A DNA stretch of 33,869 nt, taken from Elusimicrobiota bacterium. GTDB lineage: Bacteria; CAYTYR01; UBA6262. This document shows positions 2,304-24,387 of the stretch, in pieces. How positions within the stretch are numbered: the first letter of the stretch is position 1; each line of letters begins with the position of its first letter. The stretch spans positions 1 to 33,869 of the forward strand of contig JACRDM010000135.1 in NCBI GenBank assembly GCA_016218565.1. Reading direction: 5' to 3'. Below the pieces are notes generated by a model. The model did no database searches and was not told the DNA's origin. It saw only the letters and a list, made by a program, of their open reading frames with translations. Both the position numbers and the translations under genes were made by a program.

Positions 2304-2378
2304 TAGCGTTAAGCGGGTAGCGTTTAGCGTATAGAAAATCCTTTAAACTATCCGCTATACGCCATACGCTATACGCTA
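2304..2378. repeat. Palindromic intergenic repeat R1, built of TAGCG(TA) units
   Basis: tagcgttaagcgggtagcgtttagcgtatagaaaatcctttaaactatccgctatacgccatacgctatacgctaat; aligns with R2 at 13915-13989 and forms an imperfect hairpin. Confidence 0.8.
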
Positions 2379-3416
2379 ATTAGATCCAAAAGGCAGGCTT
2401 AAAGAAACCACATATGTAGCGATTGAGTTCATTTGCTCAGGAACTACCGAGTCCCTGATTTTATTTCTCTTCATGGCCAGGTCTAACCTATAACCTTTAT
2501 CCGTAAAACCCATCCCAAACGTGTACGTCACTTTATCCGGATCATTCCAATTTTCCCCACTCATGCCTGCTCTGAAAATAAACAGGTCAAACAAATACTG
2601 CTCGACCCCAACATGCTTGGTGGTCAGGTCGTCATGATCAGCATAATATATCTTTTTTATATCATACACAAACGTTACCTTCTGCGGCAGACTCATGGCC
2701 ACTCCGGTGTTCAGAGTAAGGGGTAACCGGCTCTTATCATAATCGCTCCAGTACATGTACCCGCAGGCATTTATGGCGCTGATACCAAAAGAAAGATACG
2801 GGCTTGGTACAAACACAATCCCCAGGTCAAGGCTCCAGCCATTACTTGTATCCACATTGATCTTACTCACATCATTAGATGCATCTTTGGTCCGCTGGGC
2901 AATAGATAAATTGCCATTGAGATAATTTAAACTCACCCCGGTAAAAACATTCTCCCGGTACATTTTGGCCGTGGTCAACATTAATTCGTTGATATTGACT
3001 TTCTTATTGACCCACTGTTCCACCCCATTTTCATTAGTATAGGTATCAGTGGCTATTTTGGATAAAGGACGGATAGACAATGCTCCGTTGGGCGAGGCAA
3101 AACTCATAAAAGCTAATTTCCCACCCCGTAAAGGATCGCTTTTGATCACCTCCTCCCACTTGGCGTTGCTTTCTCTCTGCAGATAAGAACAAACAGTAAA
3201 AGAATTAGTTCCCATTAAAGCCAGACCAGCCGAATTCCAATAGGGGGCCGAAGCATCGGCGCTCAAGCCGGTAAAAGCCTCTCCCAGTCCAATCGCCCTG
3301 GCGCCTATAACCTGTCCATCAAACGCATCATACTCAAGCGGCGCTTTCTCCGCCCAAGCGCTACTCGCGGCTAAGAGTAATAATACTGTTATTAATCTTT
3401 TCTTTTCTTTAGGCAC
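2376..3416 (-). CDS. PorV/PorQ-like (UPF0164-type) outer-membrane beta-barrel protein, GTG start
   Basis: Signal peptide then GARAIGLGEAFTGLSADASAPYWNSAGLAL, typical of the PorV/UPF0164 N-terminus. Confidence 0.75.
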   Translation of the reverse strand: MPKEKKRLITVLLLLAASSAWAEKAPLEYDAFDGQVIGARAIGLGEAFTGLSADASAPYWNSAGLALMGTNSFTVCSYLQRESNAKWEEVIKSDPLRGGKLAFMSFASPNGALSIRPLSKIATDTYTNENGVEQWVNKKVNINELMLTTAKMYRENVFTGVSLNYLNGNLSIAQRTKDASNDVSKINVDTSNGWSLDLGIVFVPSPYLSFGISAINACGYMYWSDYDKSRLPLTLNTGVAMSLPQKVTFVYDIKKIYYADHDDLTTKHVGVEQYLFDLFIFRAGMSGENWNDPDKVTYTFGMGFTDKGYRLDLAMKRNKIRDSVVPEQMNSIATYVVSLSLPFGSN

Positions 3417-6391: not shown

Positions 6392-7488
6392 GTTTTAAGG
6401 GACGTTTTAAGGTTTTAAGGGACGTTGTTAGGCAATTAGGTATTCATTTTCTGCGGCGATCATTCTACCGCGTGTTATCGCTTCGCTTATAGAAGCTGGA
6501 GTTATCTCAAAGTAGCGCGCTATATCTACCCCGCTGATCCCTAATTCCTGATTAGCAAAATACGCTATCAAGCTTCTGGCTTGGGCTATTTTGTTCCTTT
6601 TACTCAATCTCTTTATGTCTTTTATGTCCACCCCTAATAAATCACATACCTTCTGTACCACTGTATCTATATCCCACCCTTCCTGTTGCAACTTGGCTTT
6701 CCTCTCCAAGTGTTCTTCTGCGGCATTGAGAGCCTGGCTGACAAAATCACCATCGCCCAATATCCGTTCATCTGCATACCATTTCTCCTTGGATTTCCTC
6801 AACTGTTGTATGCCTTTCCAACCACCCGCGCTTCTCAGCAATCCTCCACCGCTTAAGTCTTCTCTCTTCCCTATGTTTTTCCCTTCAGCTATAAATTCCT
6901 CATATCGCCTGATTGCCTCTGCTTTCTTAGTCCCAAAACGCTCCAGTATTTCTCCCGTCTCTTGCCATGACGATTGGATCTTCCCCATCAAAACAGCATG
7001 GCCGCTCCATTTATAACCACCGAGACTTTTACTATCGAGAAGTAATCCCGCCCGGAATGGATTCAAATGGATATAACGTACTAACTCTAGTAAATATGCT
7101 TCCTCTTGGCATAATATTGATTTGTACCTGCCTTGATAAAGATAACCGCTACGCTTATACCGCCGGTTAAAATATAGCGCGTAACCAGTTAATAACCCCC
7201 TCATGAGATCGCTTAACGGTCTTACCCCACTCCTGATCAGCAAGTGAAAATGGTTAGGCATTAATACCCAACCATAGCATTTATGTCCGGTCTGCTTCAG
7301 GCCCTTAGCTAAACGACGAGTAAATTCTTTCCGATCAAAATCATCAATAAATATTTTACGGCGTTCCAAGCCGCGCTGGATCACATGATAGATAGCACCT
7401 TCTATATATATTCTTCCTTGTCTGGGCATGGCATATATTTATCACATCTTAATTTCATTGTCAATACCTAATTGCCTAACAACGTCCC
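6392..7488 (-). mobile_element. RAYT/REPtron-like element: Y1 transposase gene bounded by 26-bp perfect inverted repeats
   Basis: gggacgttgttaggcaattaggtatt at 6419-6444; exact reverse complement aatacctaattgcctaacaacgtccc at 7463-7488. The outer left side also has a 15-bp direct repeat gttttaagggacgtt at 6392-6406 and 6412-6426. Confidence 0.75.
6428..7429 (-). CDS. REP-associated tyrosine transposase-like (Y1_Tnp / Transposase_17) with DnaA-C-like HTH C-terminus
   Basis: MPRQGRIYIEGAIYHVIQRGLERRKIF, GWVLMPNHFHLLI (HUH), YIHLNPFRAGL; C-terminal LSKRNKIAQARSLIAYFANQELGISGVDIARYFEITPASISEAI. Confidence 0.92.
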   Translation of the reverse strand: MPRQGRIYIEGAIYHVIQRGLERRKIFIDDFDRKEFTRRLAKGLKQTGHKCYGWVLMPNHFHLLIRSGVRPLSDLMRGLLTGYALYFNRRYKRSGYLYQGRYKSILCQEEAYLLELVRYIHLNPFRAGLLLDSKSLGGYKWSGHAVLMGKIQSSWQETGEILERFGTKKAEAIRRYEEFIAEGKNIGKREDLSGGGLLRSAGGWKGIQQLRKSKEKWYADERILGDGDFVSQALNAAEEHLERKAKLQQEGWDIDTVVQKVCDLLGVDIKDIKRLSKRNKIAQARSLIAYFANQELGISGVDIARYFEITPASISEAITRGRMIAAENEYLIA

Positions 7489-13914: not shown

Positions 13915-15138
<1,224 letters not shown>

Positions 15139-15139
15139 T

Positions 15140-15161
15140 TAACCTGCTTTTAGGCAGGTTA
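15140..15161. repeat. Perfect 8-bp hairpin TAACCTGC-tttta(g)-GCAGGTTA
   Basis: Inverted arms upstream of tgt; shares the aggcaggt core with copies A and B. Confidence 0.55.
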
Positions 15162-15314
15162 GTTATATTTTAATACTATTTTCATAAAAAGGCAACAGAT
15201 ACTTTGTCACAATTTGCCTCAAGTTCAATATACCTTCAGAGACGTTACTTCAGGACTGACTCTCTTCCCTTCCCTTCCCTTTCGATGATAGTAATGTCAC
15301 CGGAGGTTTTATAA

Positions 15315-15495: not shown

Positions 15496-16728
15496 TTACT
15501 CGATCCAGCGTACAACAGCAAACCGGGTAGCCTGGGGCAAGGAAACAAATCCCTCATAATTAAACTGGTTTATCCTGGGTTCCGACGGACCGCAATGCAA
15601 GATGAGGTCATACTTATCCAAAAGACCATTAGGGGTTCCGTTTTCACTGGAATCAGCATACAAAATACCGACATGATCCCAGCTCCTGTCTGCTTTATCA
15701 GGTATATAATTAAATAAGATAATGTCTCCTGGATGAATACCATTCTGCCCTATTTTGATGATCTTTTGATCAGCAGGCGCTCCGGCGGCATCATTATATT
15801 TCGCATAGATGATTCCATCTGAGTCATAATAATGATCAGAGAGGATCAATTTCATTAAGCCCCCCGTTGGCAGGGAATAACGCAATCCAGTGACATTAGT
15901 ATAAGGGATCCTTTTTCCCTTATATTTATTCCAGCCACCTACCACAAGATCCGCGCAATCTACTCCGACATAATTATCAACCTGGGCAGGATAAGAACCG
16001 AACACTCCCGGGACATTGAAATACCCGGTCAAATATCCCAGATAAGAAACATCTTGCTGAACAGTGACCCGACAGACTTCATTACTAATACCATTATTAG
16101 CATATCTTTCCATCCCAGGCGATCCCAAACGTTTCCGCGCTCCGCTGACATCTTTATATTCAATTACCACGCCATAACGCATGGTACCGAGGCCATCATG
16201 TATATCATATTCCGGATCAGTAGGATGCGCATCGGCTAATATGGTCCATTTATTGTTTTCTGCAACTAATTGGTTCTCTCGATAAGTGATCTTATCAACA
16301 GATAACGGCTGCCTGTCTGTTTTTCCTCCCGGGGCCCCCGCATTCGTATACCATAAGAACCACGGATTTACCGGATCATGTCCGCGGCCAGTCAAATGAT
16401 ACATTTCCGGCTCAACTTTAAACCAGGTGATATCGATCTGACCGATGTAATCACCGGGTTTTTTTGGGATGATCTCGTAGTCATCGATCTTTATCCTTTG
16501 GACATCACTAAAATAGATTACTTTACCGCTTTCTCTGGCTTTAATCACCAAGTAAAGAGCGCATGTATCCTTCTTCAATATATTCTTGGCTAAAGTATCG
16601 GCAGTATTATTTTTATTGACTTGTGAAACAATAAAAACTTTTTCCACAGAAAGCGCCGAGCCTGTTCCTGCCCGCCCCAGGATACACATAACGATCATAA
16701 ATAAGCATATTCTATTACGGTAAGACAT
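15496..16728 (-). CDS. Secreted NlpC/P60- or CHAP-like cysteine amidase candidate
   Basis: Signal peptide; VGVDCADLVVGGWNKY (Cys) and SWDHVGILYAD (His) plus HPGDIILFN. Confidence 0.65.
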   Translation of the reverse strand: MSYRNRICLFMIVMCILGRAGTGSALSVEKVFIVSQVNKNNTADTLAKNILKKDTCALYLVIKARESGKVIYFSDVQRIKIDDYEIIPKKPGDYIGQIDITWFKVEPEMYHLTGRGHDPVNPWFLWYTNAGAPGGKTDRQPLSVDKITYRENQLVAENNKWTILADAHPTDPEYDIHDGLGTMRYGVVIEYKDVSGARKRLGSPGMERYANNGISNEVCRVTVQQDVSYLGYLTGYFNVPGVFGSYPAQVDNYVGVDCADLVVGGWNKYKGKRIPYTNVTGLRYSLPTGGLMKLILSDHYYDSDGIIYAKYNDAAGAPADQKIIKIGQNGIHPGDIILFNYIPDKADRSWDHVGILYADSSENGTPNGLLDKYDLILHCGPSEPRINQFNYEGFVSLPQATRFAVVRWIE

Positions 16729-17461
16729 GTTTTAACTCTGGATAGTATTCAAATGGTTTTAAAATCCCGTTTTCATATTTCAAAACCATAAGATGCGTAT
16801 GGGTGGGACTGCTTTTCTTATTGGCTAGCAGCCCGGTCCTACCTACTGTTCCTATTACTGTTCCGGCTTTCACAAAATTCCCTGAGGCCGCTAACACTTT
16901 GTCCAAATGAGCATAATAAAAGAACTGGTCAGATTTTGGATTATATAACCAGATATAATTCCCGCCCCGCAGCTTACTGCCCTTTTGCCAAGTAGTATAA
17001 GTACTAAGCACAATACTATCAACCATAGCTAATGCTTCCACTGGTTGATGGGTCTGATCATCAAGACTATTTTGATCTTTATCCCTGATAAAAATATCAT
17101 GCGCCGGATGCCCGCCGTGCCGGTTACCGTCAAAAAAGTTATATCCTTTGATAGGACTCACCCCATAGACAACATCCGGCTGGAAATCACTTCCTTTAGG
17201 AGCGATACTTTTCAAACCATATCCTTTTAAAGGGAATATCCAGGCTTGATTTCCTGTAAAATCATATTTAGCGCAAACTAACCGAATATCATTCAGTATA
17301 CCTGGCAACTCAGCCTGGGCGGAAGTCTTAGTAATCAGTCCATCCCTGATTTTCACTTCATAATTTTCCCAGGAAATTATTGGGGCAGCTGACAATGAAG
17401 CTATGGTCAGCGGCACCAGTAAAAAAGCAATAATAAAAGCATTACTAGCTATTTTCTTCAT
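16715..17461 (-). CDS. Secreted M23-family metallopeptidase
   Basis: HGGHPAHDIFIRD, FYYAHLDKVLAASGNFVKAGTVIGTVGRTG, HTHLMVL. Confidence 0.85.
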   Translation of the reverse strand: MKKIASNAFIIAFLLVPLTIASLSAAPIISWENYEVKIRDGLITKTSAQAELPGILNDIRLVCAKYDFTGNQAWIFPLKGYGLKSIAPKGSDFQPDVVYGVSPIKGYNFFDGNRHGGHPAHDIFIRDKDQNSLDDQTHQPVEALAMVDSIVLSTYTTWQKGSKLRGGNYIWLYNPKSDQFFYYAHLDKVLAASGNFVKAGTVIGTVGRTGLLANKKSSPTHTHLMVLKYENGILKPFEYYPELKHVLP

Positions 17462-19146
17462 TATTCAGCCACTCGGTCCACTTTCAAGTCCTTACCTGAG
17501 AATAGGGATGGACATACAGTGTATTTTATTTCCTTGAATCCAAAACCATCCCAAGTAAAAGCCAGGGGTCCTTTTTCATTGTTTTGACCACTGGCATAGG
17601 TAACAAGATCATCTTTAGCATCGTTATTAACGTTCAGAATTTCAAAATCGGAAAAAGAAGGCCCTAATTTTGAACCAAGCCATTTAGGATAAATATAATC
17701 ATCAAAACGATTATAGACAAAAATATGATTTTCTATCTGCGGAAAATATTTTGTTGCTTTCCAAACACCTACGATCAAGTCCTGTTCGCCATCTCCATCC
17801 ACATCTCCAGCCCTGATCTTCCAGGGATTATAGTAGTTATGCGCGTCAAGTGATGGTATTTTAAAAGTTTTCTTTTGCAAATCTATGGGGAAAATAGCGA
17901 TCTGCTTTCCCCTGGGCTCAAGTATATCACCGACAATAGCATAAACATAGGCATATCCTTTATCTCTAACCAAACAAGCATCCTTCACTACTCCGGCGCT
18001 TTCTTTAAAAGGCAATACCCTGGCGGTTTCATCCTCCGGGAATCGTATTTCCATCCGGGACGAAAATACCGTAATCCTCACCCCTGGCAAATTCCATTCT
18101 TTAATCGGAACCGTAACAATTTCCTCAGGATAGTTGGTGGCCAGGTGAATAGCCTGCGAAAAGGTTGACTTGGCCATGATAAACTCTTTTGAACTATCTA
18201 TGGCCCATGCGCTAAATATCTCTAAGTCTTTACCTTCGGCCAATCCCGGCTGACAATCTTTCATTCTTACGGGAATAATTATTGGCTCTTTTATTTTCCC
18301 TTTATCAAAAATGCAGGAAAAGATAGCTGTTCTTTGCTGTTCTGGCTTAGTACTATCAAACACAAAATTACCTAAGCTATAAAGAATGAATCTATCTTTA
18401 TACTTCTCAATGGTTTGCAGCACATGAGGGTGATGCCCGATAATTAGATCGGCTCCGGCATCAATCATCTGGTGAGCATATCGCACTTGCCTGGTAGCAG
18501 GTTTAGTTTGTTTTTCTATTCCCCAATGCAGAGTAACGATCACAAAATCAACCTGCTTTTTTGTTTCTTTAATAAGTTCGGTAAGAGTATTAATATCTGT
18601 ATACGCTGGCCCGCATTTATTCTCATTATAAACAATGCCTTCTAACAGGAATCCAAGAGTACTGATAAAGGCAAAAGTTAAACCATTCTTTCTGATAATC
18701 ACCGGCGTGGCGGCAGTTGATTGGTTGGCTCCAGCGCCAATAGCTTGAATGTTATTTTCTTGTAAAATTCGTAATGTTTCAGTCAAACCGTCACGGCCCC
18801 AATCCATAGTATGATTGTTCGCCATCGTAGCAATATTAAACCCGGCATAGGTAAGACCGGCTATCGATTCCGGGTCTCCCCGGAAACAAAAACGTTTTAA
18901 CAGAGGATAACCAATATTTTTAGGGGTTAATGGACATTCCAGATTACATAGCGCCAGGTCATGAGCAGAGATTATTGGTTTTACTTTTTCAAAGAGGTAG
19001 TTTATCCCATGTTCCTCTATGCGAGTGCGAATCCCGCGATCAAAAAGTATATCCCCAACAGCGCAAAATTTCACTTCAGCGCAAAAGATTGAGCTTGCCA
19101 AGAGCATAAAAGCCATCAGGATCAGGGTAAAACGAAACACTTTCAT
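17461..19146 (-). CDS. CapA/PgsA-type metallophosphatase with C-terminal VCBS/FG-GAP-like repeat; start taken at M23 of the listed ORF
   Basis: CAVGDILFDRGI, LCNLECPLT, ATMANNHTMDWG, VTLHWGIEKQ, GHHPHVLQ; DVDGDGEQDLIVGVW. Confidence 0.85.
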   Translation of the reverse strand: MKVFRFTLILMAFMLLASSIFCAEVKFCAVGDILFDRGIRTRIEEHGINYLFEKVKPIISAHDLALCNLECPLTPKNIGYPLLKRFCFRGDPESIAGLTYAGFNIATMANNHTMDWGRDGLTETLRILQENNIQAIGAGANQSTAATPVIIRKNGLTFAFISTLGFLLEGIVYNENKCGPAYTDINTLTELIKETKKQVDFVIVTLHWGIEKQTKPATRQVRYAHQMIDAGADLIIGHHPHVLQTIEKYKDRFILYSLGNFVFDSTKPEQQRTAIFSCIFDKGKIKEPIIIPVRMKDCQPGLAEGKDLEIFSAWAIDSSKEFIMAKSTFSQAIHLATNYPEEIVTVPIKEWNLPGVRITVFSSRMEIRFPEDETARVLPFKESAGVVKDACLVRDKGYAYVYAIVGDILEPRGKQIAIFPIDLQKKTFKIPSLDAHNYYNPWKIRAGDVDGDGEQDLIVGVWKATKYFPQIENHIFVYNRFDDYIYPKWLGSKLGPSFSDFEILNVNNDAKDDLVTYASGQNNEKGPLAFTWDGFGFKEIKYTVCPSLFSGKDLKVDRVAE

Positions 19147-19147
19147 T

Positions 19148-21613
19148 TTAACACCCTGTTTCATAATAAGGGATCGTTTTCCATCCCGGTTCAGGAGACC
19201 AATCCGGCACATCTTCTATTTTAGGCTTATAAAGCGGCCTGAGTTTTTTTCCTTCCTTACTCGGAGAACGAAAATAGTCGCTCCATTTTGGCAATTCCGG
19301 AGCATTGCCTTTCTCTAGTATCTCTTGCCATTTTTCATCAGTTAACCGATTTGTTGCTTCCCAGGGGAATTCATAATAGGAAAATATCGCGCCCCGAGTG
19401 AGCTTTAATTTACCATCTATCTCCACGATCACGTACATTTCATGAGCTTTACCTACTCCCACCTCTAAAGCAAATGAATCAGCAGTATGGACATCGGCAA
19501 TAACCGGCATATTCTTGTCCGGGCCACCTACATAATCCCACGACTTAGCGCTGTCTGGGTCCCGAAGAACTTCTAAGGTGAGATTATCCAGTAATGAACC
19601 CAGCTTTTGGATCTGTTCATATTCCTGTAAAGTTCGGGGAATATTATTCACCTCTTTATTGGATACTGTTTCCAGGAAAGCTATTAAATCCGCGAATTGA
19701 TTGCATAAACCTTCCATCCTTGCATCAATGACCTTTCTGGCGGCAAGCTCTGTTCTGGTAAAATCAAGTGAGTCTCCCATTTTTTTATAGAATTCCAGGT
19801 TAGGCTCAACATACCCTTTCGGAGGCTCGGGGATCCATACTCTTACTTCTCCACCTCCGTTGCCGCATTCCGCAACATAGCTCTGCTTGGCATAAAGAAT
19901 CGTATCATGCCGCAGCTCTGCCCAGCTTCCTAAACTGGAGCTTAAGCTTTTTCTTTTCCACCCCTCTGTTTTCATAAAGAAGGGATATTTATACTCATTT
20001 TTAAGTACGATTAAAGACTTTAAACACCATAGCCAATTATAATATAGATTGTGCTTCCATTCTTTTTCACTTAGATCGCTGTATTCAGTTATCAATTCAT
20101 CCAATTTATCAGGATACTCTGGCCAATCTTTCCATGAGTCTTTTTCTTCTGTAAGCATAATTGTTTTGGCCGTTGGACTACCGAAAATTGACATCACATC
20201 CAACCCATTGGGGAAATCTCTAAAATACTGTTTGTCTCTATCCCTAATGGTCAAACGTTGAAAGAAATATGAATCAGGAACAAATCTCTGTCCCATAACC
20301 CGGAATTGCGCATCCTGTGTTCCCCAAATACCATGTCCGGTTATTTTGGTCTTCTGTTTGAATTTTGCGACTAATATTTTTCTTATATCCGTAAGCTTCT
20401 TGGAATTACTAAAATCATTATAGGTGTACTTTTTTCCTAATACTTCTTCCATCGCCTCCTTAAAATCATCCGGCCCCAGGTCATCTGCCAGACCGACATA
20501 GAACACTGTTGGTTCATAGATCTCTTTCCATAGCTCAATCAAAGGACGTCCATCTATTGATGACTTTTTTGTATATAAAATATTAGTGATGATCAATCCC
20601 TGGAGCATTCCCAAATTATCCTCTTTCATATCAATACCGGCAAAACCCAGCCACATCATCGCCATAAAATAATTTTTTAGAGTTTCATTCCGCGTATAAT
20701 GGCCCCGGGGAATGAACTGGCTGTAGTCAAACTTTCTTTTAAGTAAGGCGGAATCCGTCCATGAAGGATGCGCCTTACAGAATTCAATCTCCCCTTTGGC
20801 TATTTGGCCAGCCGGCACATCCAAATTGATTTGCCCGCCATTGATAAAATAAGACGGTATCAGCACATAAGCAGAATTATTAAAAGCTGCCTGTTTAAGC
20901 AGTTCATTTGTTGCCTGGTTATAAACCTGATCGTTGTTTTTCAATATTTCCCGGCAAAGAGTATTTAATGTTTTAGACAAATAATTCTGTTCCAGATTTC
21001 TCAGGGTCATATCAAAAAATAAATGATACAACTGCAGAACTGAATCAGTAGTAATAAAGCTGGGTATCCCCAGGTAGTCGTTATTTTCGTACACATGAAA
21101 AAGCTGATTGTATTCTGTGGGTAAGGTTACAAAACCATTTTGGCCCAATTTTTCTTTTTCTTCAGCGCTGAATTCAGGATATTGGAAAATATTGTAAATA
21201 TTATTAAAATTCACTTTCTGCTGACCGTTTTTCTTAATATAATCCGTTCTATGCCTTTTATCTTCCTCTTTCTGCAGCAACAGAGCATTGGCTAATTCCA
21301 CTTTAGAAAGCATGCTCTCTGAATACTGCTCATTCGGCTTATACCAACTCTGGGCCATAAAATAGCTGTTCAATTCATAGTTCATAAAACAGCGGCCACG
21401 CCTGGCATAGATCTCATTACGCGACAGCCATAGTTCTGAAACTGTTTTATTGAGTAGTAAATCAGGATTAAGCGACATGGTGGATGCCCCTTGGATCTCC
21501 CCGGCAGAAACATTCAAAACAAGCGCCCAGGTCATTCCCAACATAAAAGCGCAGGCTAAAATATTTTTACTATTTATCAGGCGCTCCCACTTGAGAAGTG
21601 TATTTACTTTCAT
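19148..21613 (-). CDS. Secreted YARHG-domain plus DUF3160-domain protein
   Basis: LWLSRNEIYARRGRCFMNYELNSYFMAQSWYKPN (YARHG); FVTLPTEYNQLFHVYENNDYLGIPSFITTDSVLQLYHLFFDMTLRNLE and ADVHTADSFALEVGVGKAHEMYVIVE (DUF3160). Confidence 0.85.
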   Translation of the reverse strand: MKVNTLLKWERLINSKNILACAFMLGMTWALVLNVSAGEIQGASTMSLNPDLLLNKTVSELWLSRNEIYARRGRCFMNYELNSYFMAQSWYKPNEQYSESMLSKVELANALLLQKEEDKRHRTDYIKKNGQQKVNFNNIYNIFQYPEFSAEEKEKLGQNGFVTLPTEYNQLFHVYENNDYLGIPSFITTDSVLQLYHLFFDMTLRNLEQNYLSKTLNTLCREILKNNDQVYNQATNELLKQAAFNNSAYVLIPSYFINGGQINLDVPAGQIAKGEIEFCKAHPSWTDSALLKRKFDYSQFIPRGHYTRNETLKNYFMAMMWLGFAGIDMKEDNLGMLQGLIITNILYTKKSSIDGRPLIELWKEIYEPTVFYVGLADDLGPDDFKEAMEEVLGKKYTYNDFSNSKKLTDIRKILVAKFKQKTKITGHGIWGTQDAQFRVMGQRFVPDSYFFQRLTIRDRDKQYFRDFPNGLDVMSIFGSPTAKTIMLTEEKDSWKDWPEYPDKLDELITEYSDLSEKEWKHNLYYNWLWCLKSLIVLKNEYKYPFFMKTEGWKRKSLSSSLGSWAELRHDTILYAKQSYVAECGNGGGEVRVWIPEPPKGYVEPNLEFYKKMGDSLDFTRTELAARKVIDARMEGLCNQFADLIAFLETVSNKEVNNIPRTLQEYEQIQKLGSLLDNLTLEVLRDPDSAKSWDYVGGPDKNMPVIADVHTADSFALEVGVGKAHEMYVIVEIDGKLKLTRGAIFSYYEFPWEATNRLTDEKWQEILEKGNAPELPKWSDYFRSPSKEGKKLRPLYKPKIEDVPDWSPEPGWKTIPYYETGC

Positions 21614-22682: not shown

Positions 22683-23474
22683 TTACCTATTCTGACTTCC
22701 AATTATTACTAATGTATCCTGGGCTAATGACTCTTCTAATTTTAAGGCTTTTATGGCATTAAGGTCTACCTTATCTTTTTCAATGAAACGGACTGGTATT
22801 TTCTTTATTTCAGGCGGGAAAACATTATTATCAGTTACCTTCCTTCTATAGCCATTATACAGGTCAGGATATTTCTCTATATTAACCAGATCATTATTTA
22901 TCGTTATTCTATTTGGTTTATAATAAATATCAACTTTTGTCCCGATTTTAATAAAATCAAAAATACCTTCTATATCCTCTTTTAATAAAGCCACGCAACT
23001 TCCATTCTTTGTTCGACCGATAAAATTTCGCTTGTTCTGAGGCAGACCGTGAATGTAAATTGGTCCGTAAATATGCATTTTCCTTGTACCCATAGGATTA
23101 TTTTCCCCAGGCGCGAAGTAGTCGGCAATTTTTTTGTTTGGCGATCCCTCTAACGGGATATAATATGGGTCTTTTACTTTTCTATCAATAATAAAGTTAC
23201 CCTCAGGGGTGGGGAGCCCGATCCTTCCTAAACTTACTTTACATGTTTTTATTATTTTATTACCATTGCAGATAAATAGCTCAAATGATGGGATGTTCAC
23301 GACAATACGATTCGCAGAATCCATATTTTCATCTTTTCCCATTGTCAGAATCACCAAGTTATCACTTTTGGCGACATCATTTTTAACCACTGCCTCGAAA
23401 CCTGATAAATTTACTGAAAGTGTTAAGATTAAAAGTATTAATAACGCTGTTTTAGCTGATCTTTCGGCCATCAT
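22683..23474 (-). CDS. L,D-transpeptidase (YkuD) family protein
   Basis: IVVNIPSFELFICNGNKIIKTCKVSLGRIGLPTPEGNFII, HIYGPIYIHGLPQN, GSCVALLKEDIEGIFDFIKIGTKVDI. Confidence 0.85.
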   Translation of the reverse strand: MMAERSAKTALLILLILTLSVNLSGFEAVVKNDVAKSDNLVILTMGKDENMDSANRIVVNIPSFELFICNGNKIIKTCKVSLGRIGLPTPEGNFIIDRKVKDPYYIPLEGSPNKKIADYFAPGENNPMGTRKMHIYGPIYIHGLPQNKRNFIGRTKNGSCVALLKEDIEGIFDFIKIGTKVDIYYKPNRITINNDLVNIEKYPDLYNGYRRKVTDNNVFPPEIKKIPVRFIEKDKVDLNAIKALKLEESLAQDTLVIIGSQNR

Positions 23475-24387
23475 CGCTCCGATATTGATAATAAATATAT
23501 GTCAAATAAGAAATTTTTGATATTAACTTTTTAGCCCTTCTAGCATGATTATACTGGTAATGGGTTAATACGCAAATCAGGAAATCGCCTTTAGGCGTAA
23601 AAACAATACCAACATCATGGCACACCCCTTTTTCTAATCCTGTTTTATGCGCCACTTCTATAGATTCCGGTAAATGAGCGGGGATGCGGTCATTAACTTT
23701 TTGTTTTTTTAATATTTCCAGGCTTTTTCTGGAAAAATAGGCATTAATTATTTTTTGATTGTAAATCCGCTCCAAAAGAAACGCCATATCAGCCGCGCTG
23801 GTATAATTTTCCCTGCCTTTGCTCCTGCTGCGAGAGTCCAAAACATGCCTACTGATGTTAGTGTTCCTCAGCCCTATTTTCTCAAAGCAGTAATTCAAAT
23901 AATCAAATCCCAAACAATCAATAAGCATATTAGTAGCGCCATTATTACTTTCCGCAATCATAAAACTAATTAGTTCATCTATAGAGAATGCAGTGCCGTT
24001 AGGTACGCGTAATAGCTTTCCCGATCCCTTAATCCGGTATCTCCTTTTGAGCTCTAAGCTATTCTCTAAACATATTTTCTTCTCATTATTGGCATAAAAG
24101 CAACCGATCATTACTGGTAGTTTTACTAAACTTGCCGAAGGATATAGTTTATTGCTATCAAGGTCAATCACCCGGCCGGTATGCAAATCTTTAATAATTA
24201 TTGACACTTCGCCGTTAAATTGCCTGCACTGTTCCTTAATTTGGCTGCTCAGGTCGTCCCAGGAGCGGGCTGGGATAAGATTTTCTGCCTTAGCTTTATC
24301 ACCCAGGTTCATGCCACAAACAAGACTAACGAAGGTAAATATAATCAAAACCGCAAATTCAATCAAAGTTACGATTTTCCTATACAT
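23452..24387 (-). CDS. Class A beta-lactamase-like serine hydrolase
   Basis: SASLVKLPVM (SxxK), ESNNGATN (SxN), HKTGLEKGVCHDVGIV (KTG). Confidence 0.85.
   Translation of the reverse strand: MYRKIVTLIEFAVLIIFTFVSLVCGMNLGDKAKAENLIPARSWDDLSSQIKEQCRQFNGEVSIIIKDLHTGRVIDLDSNKLYPSASLVKLPVMIGCFYANNEKKICLENSLELKRRYRIKGSGKLLRVPNGTAFSIDELISFMIAESNNGATNMLIDCLGFDYLNYCFEKIGLRNTNISRHVLDSRSRSKGRENYTSAADMAFLLERIYNQKIINAYFSRKSLEILKKQKVNDRIPAHLPESIEVAHKTGLEKGVCHDVGIVFTPKGDFLICVLTHYQYNHARRAKKLISKISYLTYIYYQYRSDDGRKIS

Follow-up and report, generated by a model that had tools for sequence, protein, structure and literature searches.

The closest described relatives of the system treated here are the lasso-peptide epimerase MslH and the PgsA/CapA proteins of poly-gamma-glutamate synthesis. 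MslH is metal-dependent and binds a ribosomal peptide by its C-terminal carboxylate, epimerising the last residue (PMC10406935); C-terminal Tyr and Phe are reportedly accepted by the enzyme (PMC9266682). PgsA has been tied to the D-residue content of its polymer (Ogasawara 2019, as cited in PMC9266682), and upon its removal the D/L ratio of poly-gamma-glutamate went from 75/25 to 5/95 (PMC6029982). DUF3160 (PF11369; arCOG03316) is named a "secreted enzyme" in PMC4158269, the one paper naming it in the open-access literature that we searched; the passage on it mentions neither a pairing with CapA nor a Gly-Cys end, and no function of the domain is described in that literature. Here we analyse a stretch of 33,869 nucleotides (nt) from an Elusimicrobiota bacterium (assembly GCA_016218565.1, contig JACRDM010000135.1), called the window below, in which a gene for a DUF3160 protein is followed by a gene for a CapA enzyme. 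Together the two genes form a copy of a secreted module, DUF3160 + CapA + FG-GAP, that is widespread and uncharacterised, and in one type of this module the DUF3160 protein ends in an invariant Gly-Cys on which the partner CapA might act.

Gene layout and distribution of the module

Four minus-strand genes abut or overlap at 15496-21613, as read from the window sequence (lengths in amino acids, aa):

19148..21613, minus strand: YARHG-DUF3160 secreted protein, 821 aa, ending in ...YYETGC; gene 1 of the module (Pfam, AlphaFold 2 [AF2] model)
19148..19156, minus strand: codons of the C-terminal Gly-Cys plus stop, GGG TGT TAA (sequence)
17461..19146, minus strand: CapA/PGA_cap enzyme with fused C-terminal FG-GAP/VCBS domain, 561 aa (Pfam)
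16715..17461, minus strand: M23 peptidase, 248 aa, outside the conserved module (Pfam)
15496..16728, minus strand: secreted protein of 410 aa with a distant NlpC/P60-like C-terminal half, outside the conserved module (sub-threshold NLPC_P60 match)

The original prediction for this stretch had described a tightly coupled operon of four secreted proteins, and the coupling is borne out by the sequence. The DUF3160 and CapA genes meet in TAA-A-ATG (19150-19144), the CapA and M23 genes in TAATG with a 1-nt overlap at 17461, and the M23 gene and the gene of the 410-aa protein overlap by 14 nt (16715-16728). The CapA gene begins with the ATG at 19146; the mechanically called open reading frame (ORF) opens at 19212. 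By eye, all four N-termini are signal-like, with a basic start, a hydrophobic core and a small-residue site near the end of the core, as predicted. The domain assignments YARHG, DUF3160, PGA_cap, FG-GAP and M23 hold as well, each scoring above its Pfam cut-off. Rfam gave no match.

The DUF3160 domain of the window protein is complete (589 bits, model positions 2-631 of 632) and follows a YARHG domain (69 bits); it occurs as a single copy in the window genome. At least three tandem copies were seen in a KSB1 contig and at least two in a Methanophagales contig (L020 and L036). The AF2 model of the protein has a mean local confidence (pLDDT) of 85.9 and a predicted template modelling score (pTM) of 0.82, the C-terminal tail being disordered and mostly of low confidence. 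A Foldseek comparison of the DUF3160 fold with the PDB gave nothing meaningful, since the best E-values carry query TM scores near 0.1; the only confident match was short and paired the YARHG-like N-terminal piece with 4g2a. Across 35 diverse DUF3160 sequences, R303, R443, D447, R465, D472, E603, D707 and E748 are kept and H305, H569 and D570 nearly always so. Such an abundance of invariant Arg, Asp, Glu and His suggests that DUF3160 is an enzyme.

The window CapA matches PGA_cap (PF09587) with 256 bits against a cut-off of 27, and its FG-GAP domain scores 29.5 bits against 22.1. The motifs GD, NxE, NNHxxD, HWG and GHxPH are invariant or nearly so in the CapA alignment and are metallophosphatase-like. 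MslH is the closest solved relative. Closer comparison revealed that the Asp, Glu, Asn, His, Asp, His and His of MslH have conserved equivalents both in the window CapA and in its relatives linked to DUF3160. Both dyads (His88/Asp91 and His295/Asp11 in MslH) and three metal ligands are kept in the window protein, and the ligand His261 is Gly. Against the MslH equivalog model NF038314 it scores 97.8 bits, below the cut-off of 700.

A scan with the DUF3160 alignment, run on one genome per species (GTDB), yielded 43 named loci in bacteria and archaea (Bacteroidota, Atribacteria, Armatimonadota, Firmicutes, Chloroflexota, KSB1, WOR-3, Thorarchaeota, Thermoplasmata and others). In 14 of them, from unrelated phyla, CapA lies directly downstream of DUF3160, and annotations of Deinococcus and of a Bacteroides finegoldii plasmid also contain the pair, without remarking on it. 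Many CapA-linked loci have a separate FG-GAP gene, homologous to the C-terminal half of the window CapA, directly upstream and often abutting or overlapping; FG-GAP is instead fused to CapA in the window, Flammeovirga and the metagenome-assembled genome S5B7_HD70. The window DUF3160 protein shares 52-54% identity with those of Flammeovirga and G1025 and only 32% with that of its own congener, which suggests that the module was acquired by horizontal transfer.

CapA genes were also observed in other company. In a genome of the same class that lacks DUF3160 (L145:89-2427), a close CapA overlaps a gene for an M16 (insulinase-type) peptidase-looking protein by 4 nt, and in several Bacteroidota (L120, L121, L123, L126, L132, L133 and L140) the CapA gene recurrently follows one whose small product has the C-terminus ...YL[FL]F[TS][IV]R.

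The C-terminal Gly-Cys end

We compared the C-termini of 137 DUF3160 proteins, from loci that were partly picked by likeness to the window protein and are not a random sample. Thirty of them end in Cys, and in all 30 the preceding residue is Gly. The ...YYETGC of the window is matched in unrelated phyla by ...YYDTGC, ...YSSGC, ...FTRGGC and ...VYGTGC; not one of 566 long, non-DUF3160 background ORFs ends in Gly-Cys. The end goes together with CapA: the gene is adjacent for 26 of the 30 Gly-Cys proteins and for 13 of the 107 others (94 without), an association with a Fisher p of 2e-14, uncorrected for kinship. In a DUF3160-rich phylum of 147 genomes, the fetched loci contain two Gly-Cys proteins only, and these alone stand beside CapA. 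All four genomes with a Gly-Cys protein but without adjacent CapA carry a good CapA at another site, and no Gly-Cys tail in a genome lacking CapA was found among the sampled loci. In one CapA-linked DUF3160 protein (L006:8996-11380) the tail is kept and the terminal Cys is replaced by Tyr (...YYSGY). Judged on the open-access literature that we searched, the signature looks unreported.

Among the Gly-Cys ends, each of the four Gly codons, the two Cys codons and the three stops occurs. Because codons and stops vary so freely, selection acts on the protein, and a nucleotide-level cause (a ribosome-binding site, a gene overlap or selenocysteine recoding of TGA) was rejected on the same grounds, TAA and TAG being used too. 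Nor is the end a by-product of a ribosome-binding site, since it is kept where CapA lies 136-184 nt away or is not adjacent. After the RLTDExW motif the tail measures 43 to 66 residues, and it varies in sequence as well. Changes on the tree, which was built with the tail left out, almost always go in the same direction. A general rule that neighbours of CapA end in Gly-Cys was rejected, none of 29 CapA loci from Bacteroidota, the Flammeovirga module apart, conforming to it.

A possible action of CapA on the tail, and rival readings

In the Gly-Cys type of the module, the DUF3160 fold bears a flexible tail of variable length with a free, invariant Gly-Cys carboxy-terminus. As this free terminus adjoins the gene of an enzyme of a family that works on C-terminal residues, we propose that CapA acts on it. 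The tail would serve as a handle for the partner CapA; by analogy with MslH and PgsA, the C-terminal carboxylate would be bound at the CapA metal site, and the last residue might then be epimerised, leaving a D-Cys end; alternatively, CapA may hold the tail for other thiol or carboxyl chemistry. That the tail is a handle on which CapA acts is the reading that we favour overall, and we hold it tentatively. That CapA touches the DUF3160 tail at all is likewise possible rather than probable, whereas epimerisation as the reaction is unlikely. Slighter still is the chance that the secreted, stand-alone CapAs are epimerases which turn the terminal L-Cys of DUF3160 proteins into D-Cys, or modify the carboxy-terminus in another way, and so represent a new post-translational modification of an exported bacterial protein.

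Several observations weigh against an action of CapA on the tail. CapA stands beside a DUF3160 protein without Gly-Cys in 13 cases (among them Chloroflexota, Deinococcus and a congener of the window genome); in these it has a role that does not involve this end, and the pairing is thus wider than the tail. CapAs not linked to DUF3160 show no Gly-Cys neighbour. The metal ligand His261 of MslH is a Gly (in HWG) in the DUF3160-linked CapAs, the dyad residues are common to metallophosphatases in general, and the known substrates of MslH end in aromatic residues, none in Cys. Furthermore, a control genome also holds extra CapAs, so that the presence of CapA elsewhere in a genome is weak evidence. 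Supported independent pairs on the tree, too few for significance, gave 2.2 in the same and 0.0 in the opposite direction out of 4.

Two other readings are serious rivals. The first, which is quite plausible if short of probable, takes Gly-Cys as a thiol handle for anchoring or for a disulfide bond to the FG-GAP protein, to CapA or to the cell surface, with CapA merely co-inherited and acting on another target, for example a surface polymer. It suits a flexible tail with a thiol at its end, and the co-occurrence of FG-GAP with Gly-Cys (27 of 29) is no weaker than that of CapA; CapA without Gly-Cys also exists. Bacteroidota offer a further parallel. Of 30 DUF3160 proteins drawn from them with the Pfam model (L050-L079), 28 have a tail resembling the sorting signal of the type IX secretion system (T9SS) and no adjacent CapA; two such proteins and one from another phylum were checked with Pfam. 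DUF3160 thus seems to be a common T9SS cargo in Bacteroidota. The sorting domain occupies the C-terminal place that Gly-Cys has elsewhere, and in the wider family the C-terminus is therefore used for anchoring. However, a plain anchor needs neither the exact last position nor a constant preceding Gly, and no Cys is conserved in all CapAs of the Gly-Cys type. A conserved CapA Cys as obligatory disulfide partner was rejected, the two best candidates being present in only 18/25 and 15/25 and a recount by regular expression being no cleaner.

The second rival, which we consider rather less likely, is lineage history alone: an old DUF3160 subfamily would carry both CapA and Gly-Cys without any functional link. 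Gly-Cys clusters in few clades, with 6-8 changes on the tree, and the test on independent pairs falls short of significance. Yet Gly-Cys is kept down to roughly 30-40% pair identity, where the preceding tail turns over almost completely, and there are hardly any lineage pairings in the opposite direction.

DUF3160 with a CapA partner occurs in many phyla, and a Gly-Cys end beside a member of a peptide-end enzyme family gives a testable hypothesis for both. If the hypothesis is true, C-terminal epimerisation would reach whole secreted proteins, beyond small ribosomally synthesised and post-translationally modified peptides (RiPPs) and poly-glutamate, and this would suggest that CapA genes with the widespread annotation "capsule synthesis" often encode protein-modifying enzymes.

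Local neighbours and comparison with known systems

The M23 protein (PF01551, 35.5 bits against a cut-off of 28.7) has its metal motifs HPAHD (HxxxD) and HTH (HxH), read from the sequence; with YAHL also intact, the catalytic motifs are in place. The NlpC/CHAP-like call on the 410-aa protein fared less well. Its NLPC_P60 match (12.4-14.6 bits against a cut-off of 23) is in the direction of the call but sub-threshold, and CHAP is unmatched in Pfam; a Cys in DCADLV, a His in DHVGILY and a His in LILHC make a plausible triad by eye. The AF2 model of this protein, made without an alignment, has a pLDDT of 32. The window genome belongs to a small group; a phylum-level search over five genomes, the window genome included, found no relative of the protein in the other four, no congener has it, and 297 Bacteroidota genomes gave one weak relative, with different neighbours and seemingly without the His. 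Plasmid searches with the 410-aa protein and viral searches with this and the M23 protein found nothing.

These two genes are local neighbours, appended to the module where it stands; judging by the layout, the M23 gene is co-transcribed with it locally. M23, NlpC and CHAP are not recurrent in the neighbour clustering around DUF3160 loci, nor does a Pfam scan make any of them a recurrent family among 59 neighbour proteins from such loci, and the flanks of the 43 loci (up to 10 kb per side) contain no relative of the window M23 or 410-aa protein. In a congeneric genome, a 55% identical M23 relative lies at another place, near phosphatase-looking and acetyltransferase-looking genes. DUF3160 is also present in archaea (Thorarchaeota, Thermoplasmata, Methanophagales and Methanofollis). 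These archaea have no murein wall, and muralysis is therefore not the general purpose of DUF3160. Of the co-occurrence by which the original prediction was to be judged, the part joining DUF3160 to CapA is conserved and the part joining M23 and NlpC is not. A four-protein envelope-remodelling or bacteriolytic operon, which the tight gene coupling and the intact M23 motifs would fit, is very improbable and was rejected as a conserved system, because M23, NlpC and CHAP do not recur with DUF3160 or CapA, the congener's M23 relative stands alone and DUF3160 is found in archaea too.

Elsewhere in the window, a strong, bidirectional, terminator-like hairpin (15137-15164) lies between the operon and tgt. 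Upstream of the operon, two overlapping exported-looking genes (22683-24387, minus strand) encode an L,D-transpeptidase (YkuD) and a class-A beta-lactamase-like protein. A 333-aa protein (6428-7429, minus strand) combines an IS200-like Y1 transposase domain with a DnaA C-terminal helix-turn-helix domain. A PorV/PorQ-family protein (2376-3416, minus strand; NCBIfam, 68.6 bits, below the cut-off of 90) hints at T9SS-like secretion in the lineage.

Among described systems, the DUF3160 family is joined by the window protein as a full-length match. The T9SS-sorted Bacteroidota proteins have the same domain and likewise carry information, that for sorting, in the C-terminus; unlike the window protein, they have a Por/FlgD-like sorting domain at the end and no CapA next to them, and their clade is a separate one. 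Por_Secre_tail and CHU_C find no match in the window DUF3160 protein (Pfam), which thus lacks the C-terminal sorting domain of T9SS cargo. With PgsA/CapA the window CapA has the Pfam family and the extracellular location in common, but it pairs with DUF3160 and FG-GAP, and a scan of window ORFs, which left the remainder of the genome unsearched for them, found neither PgsB nor PgsC. MslH, a lasso-peptide C-terminal Trp epimerase, shares the PGA_cap/CapA fold family, and its action is at the very C-terminal end of a ribosomal peptide from its own cluster. Its substrate is a peptide ending in Trp, whereas that proposed for CapA would be a folded protein of 700-800 aa ending in Gly-Cys, and the DUF3160-linked CapAs, unlike MslH, have signal-like N-termini.

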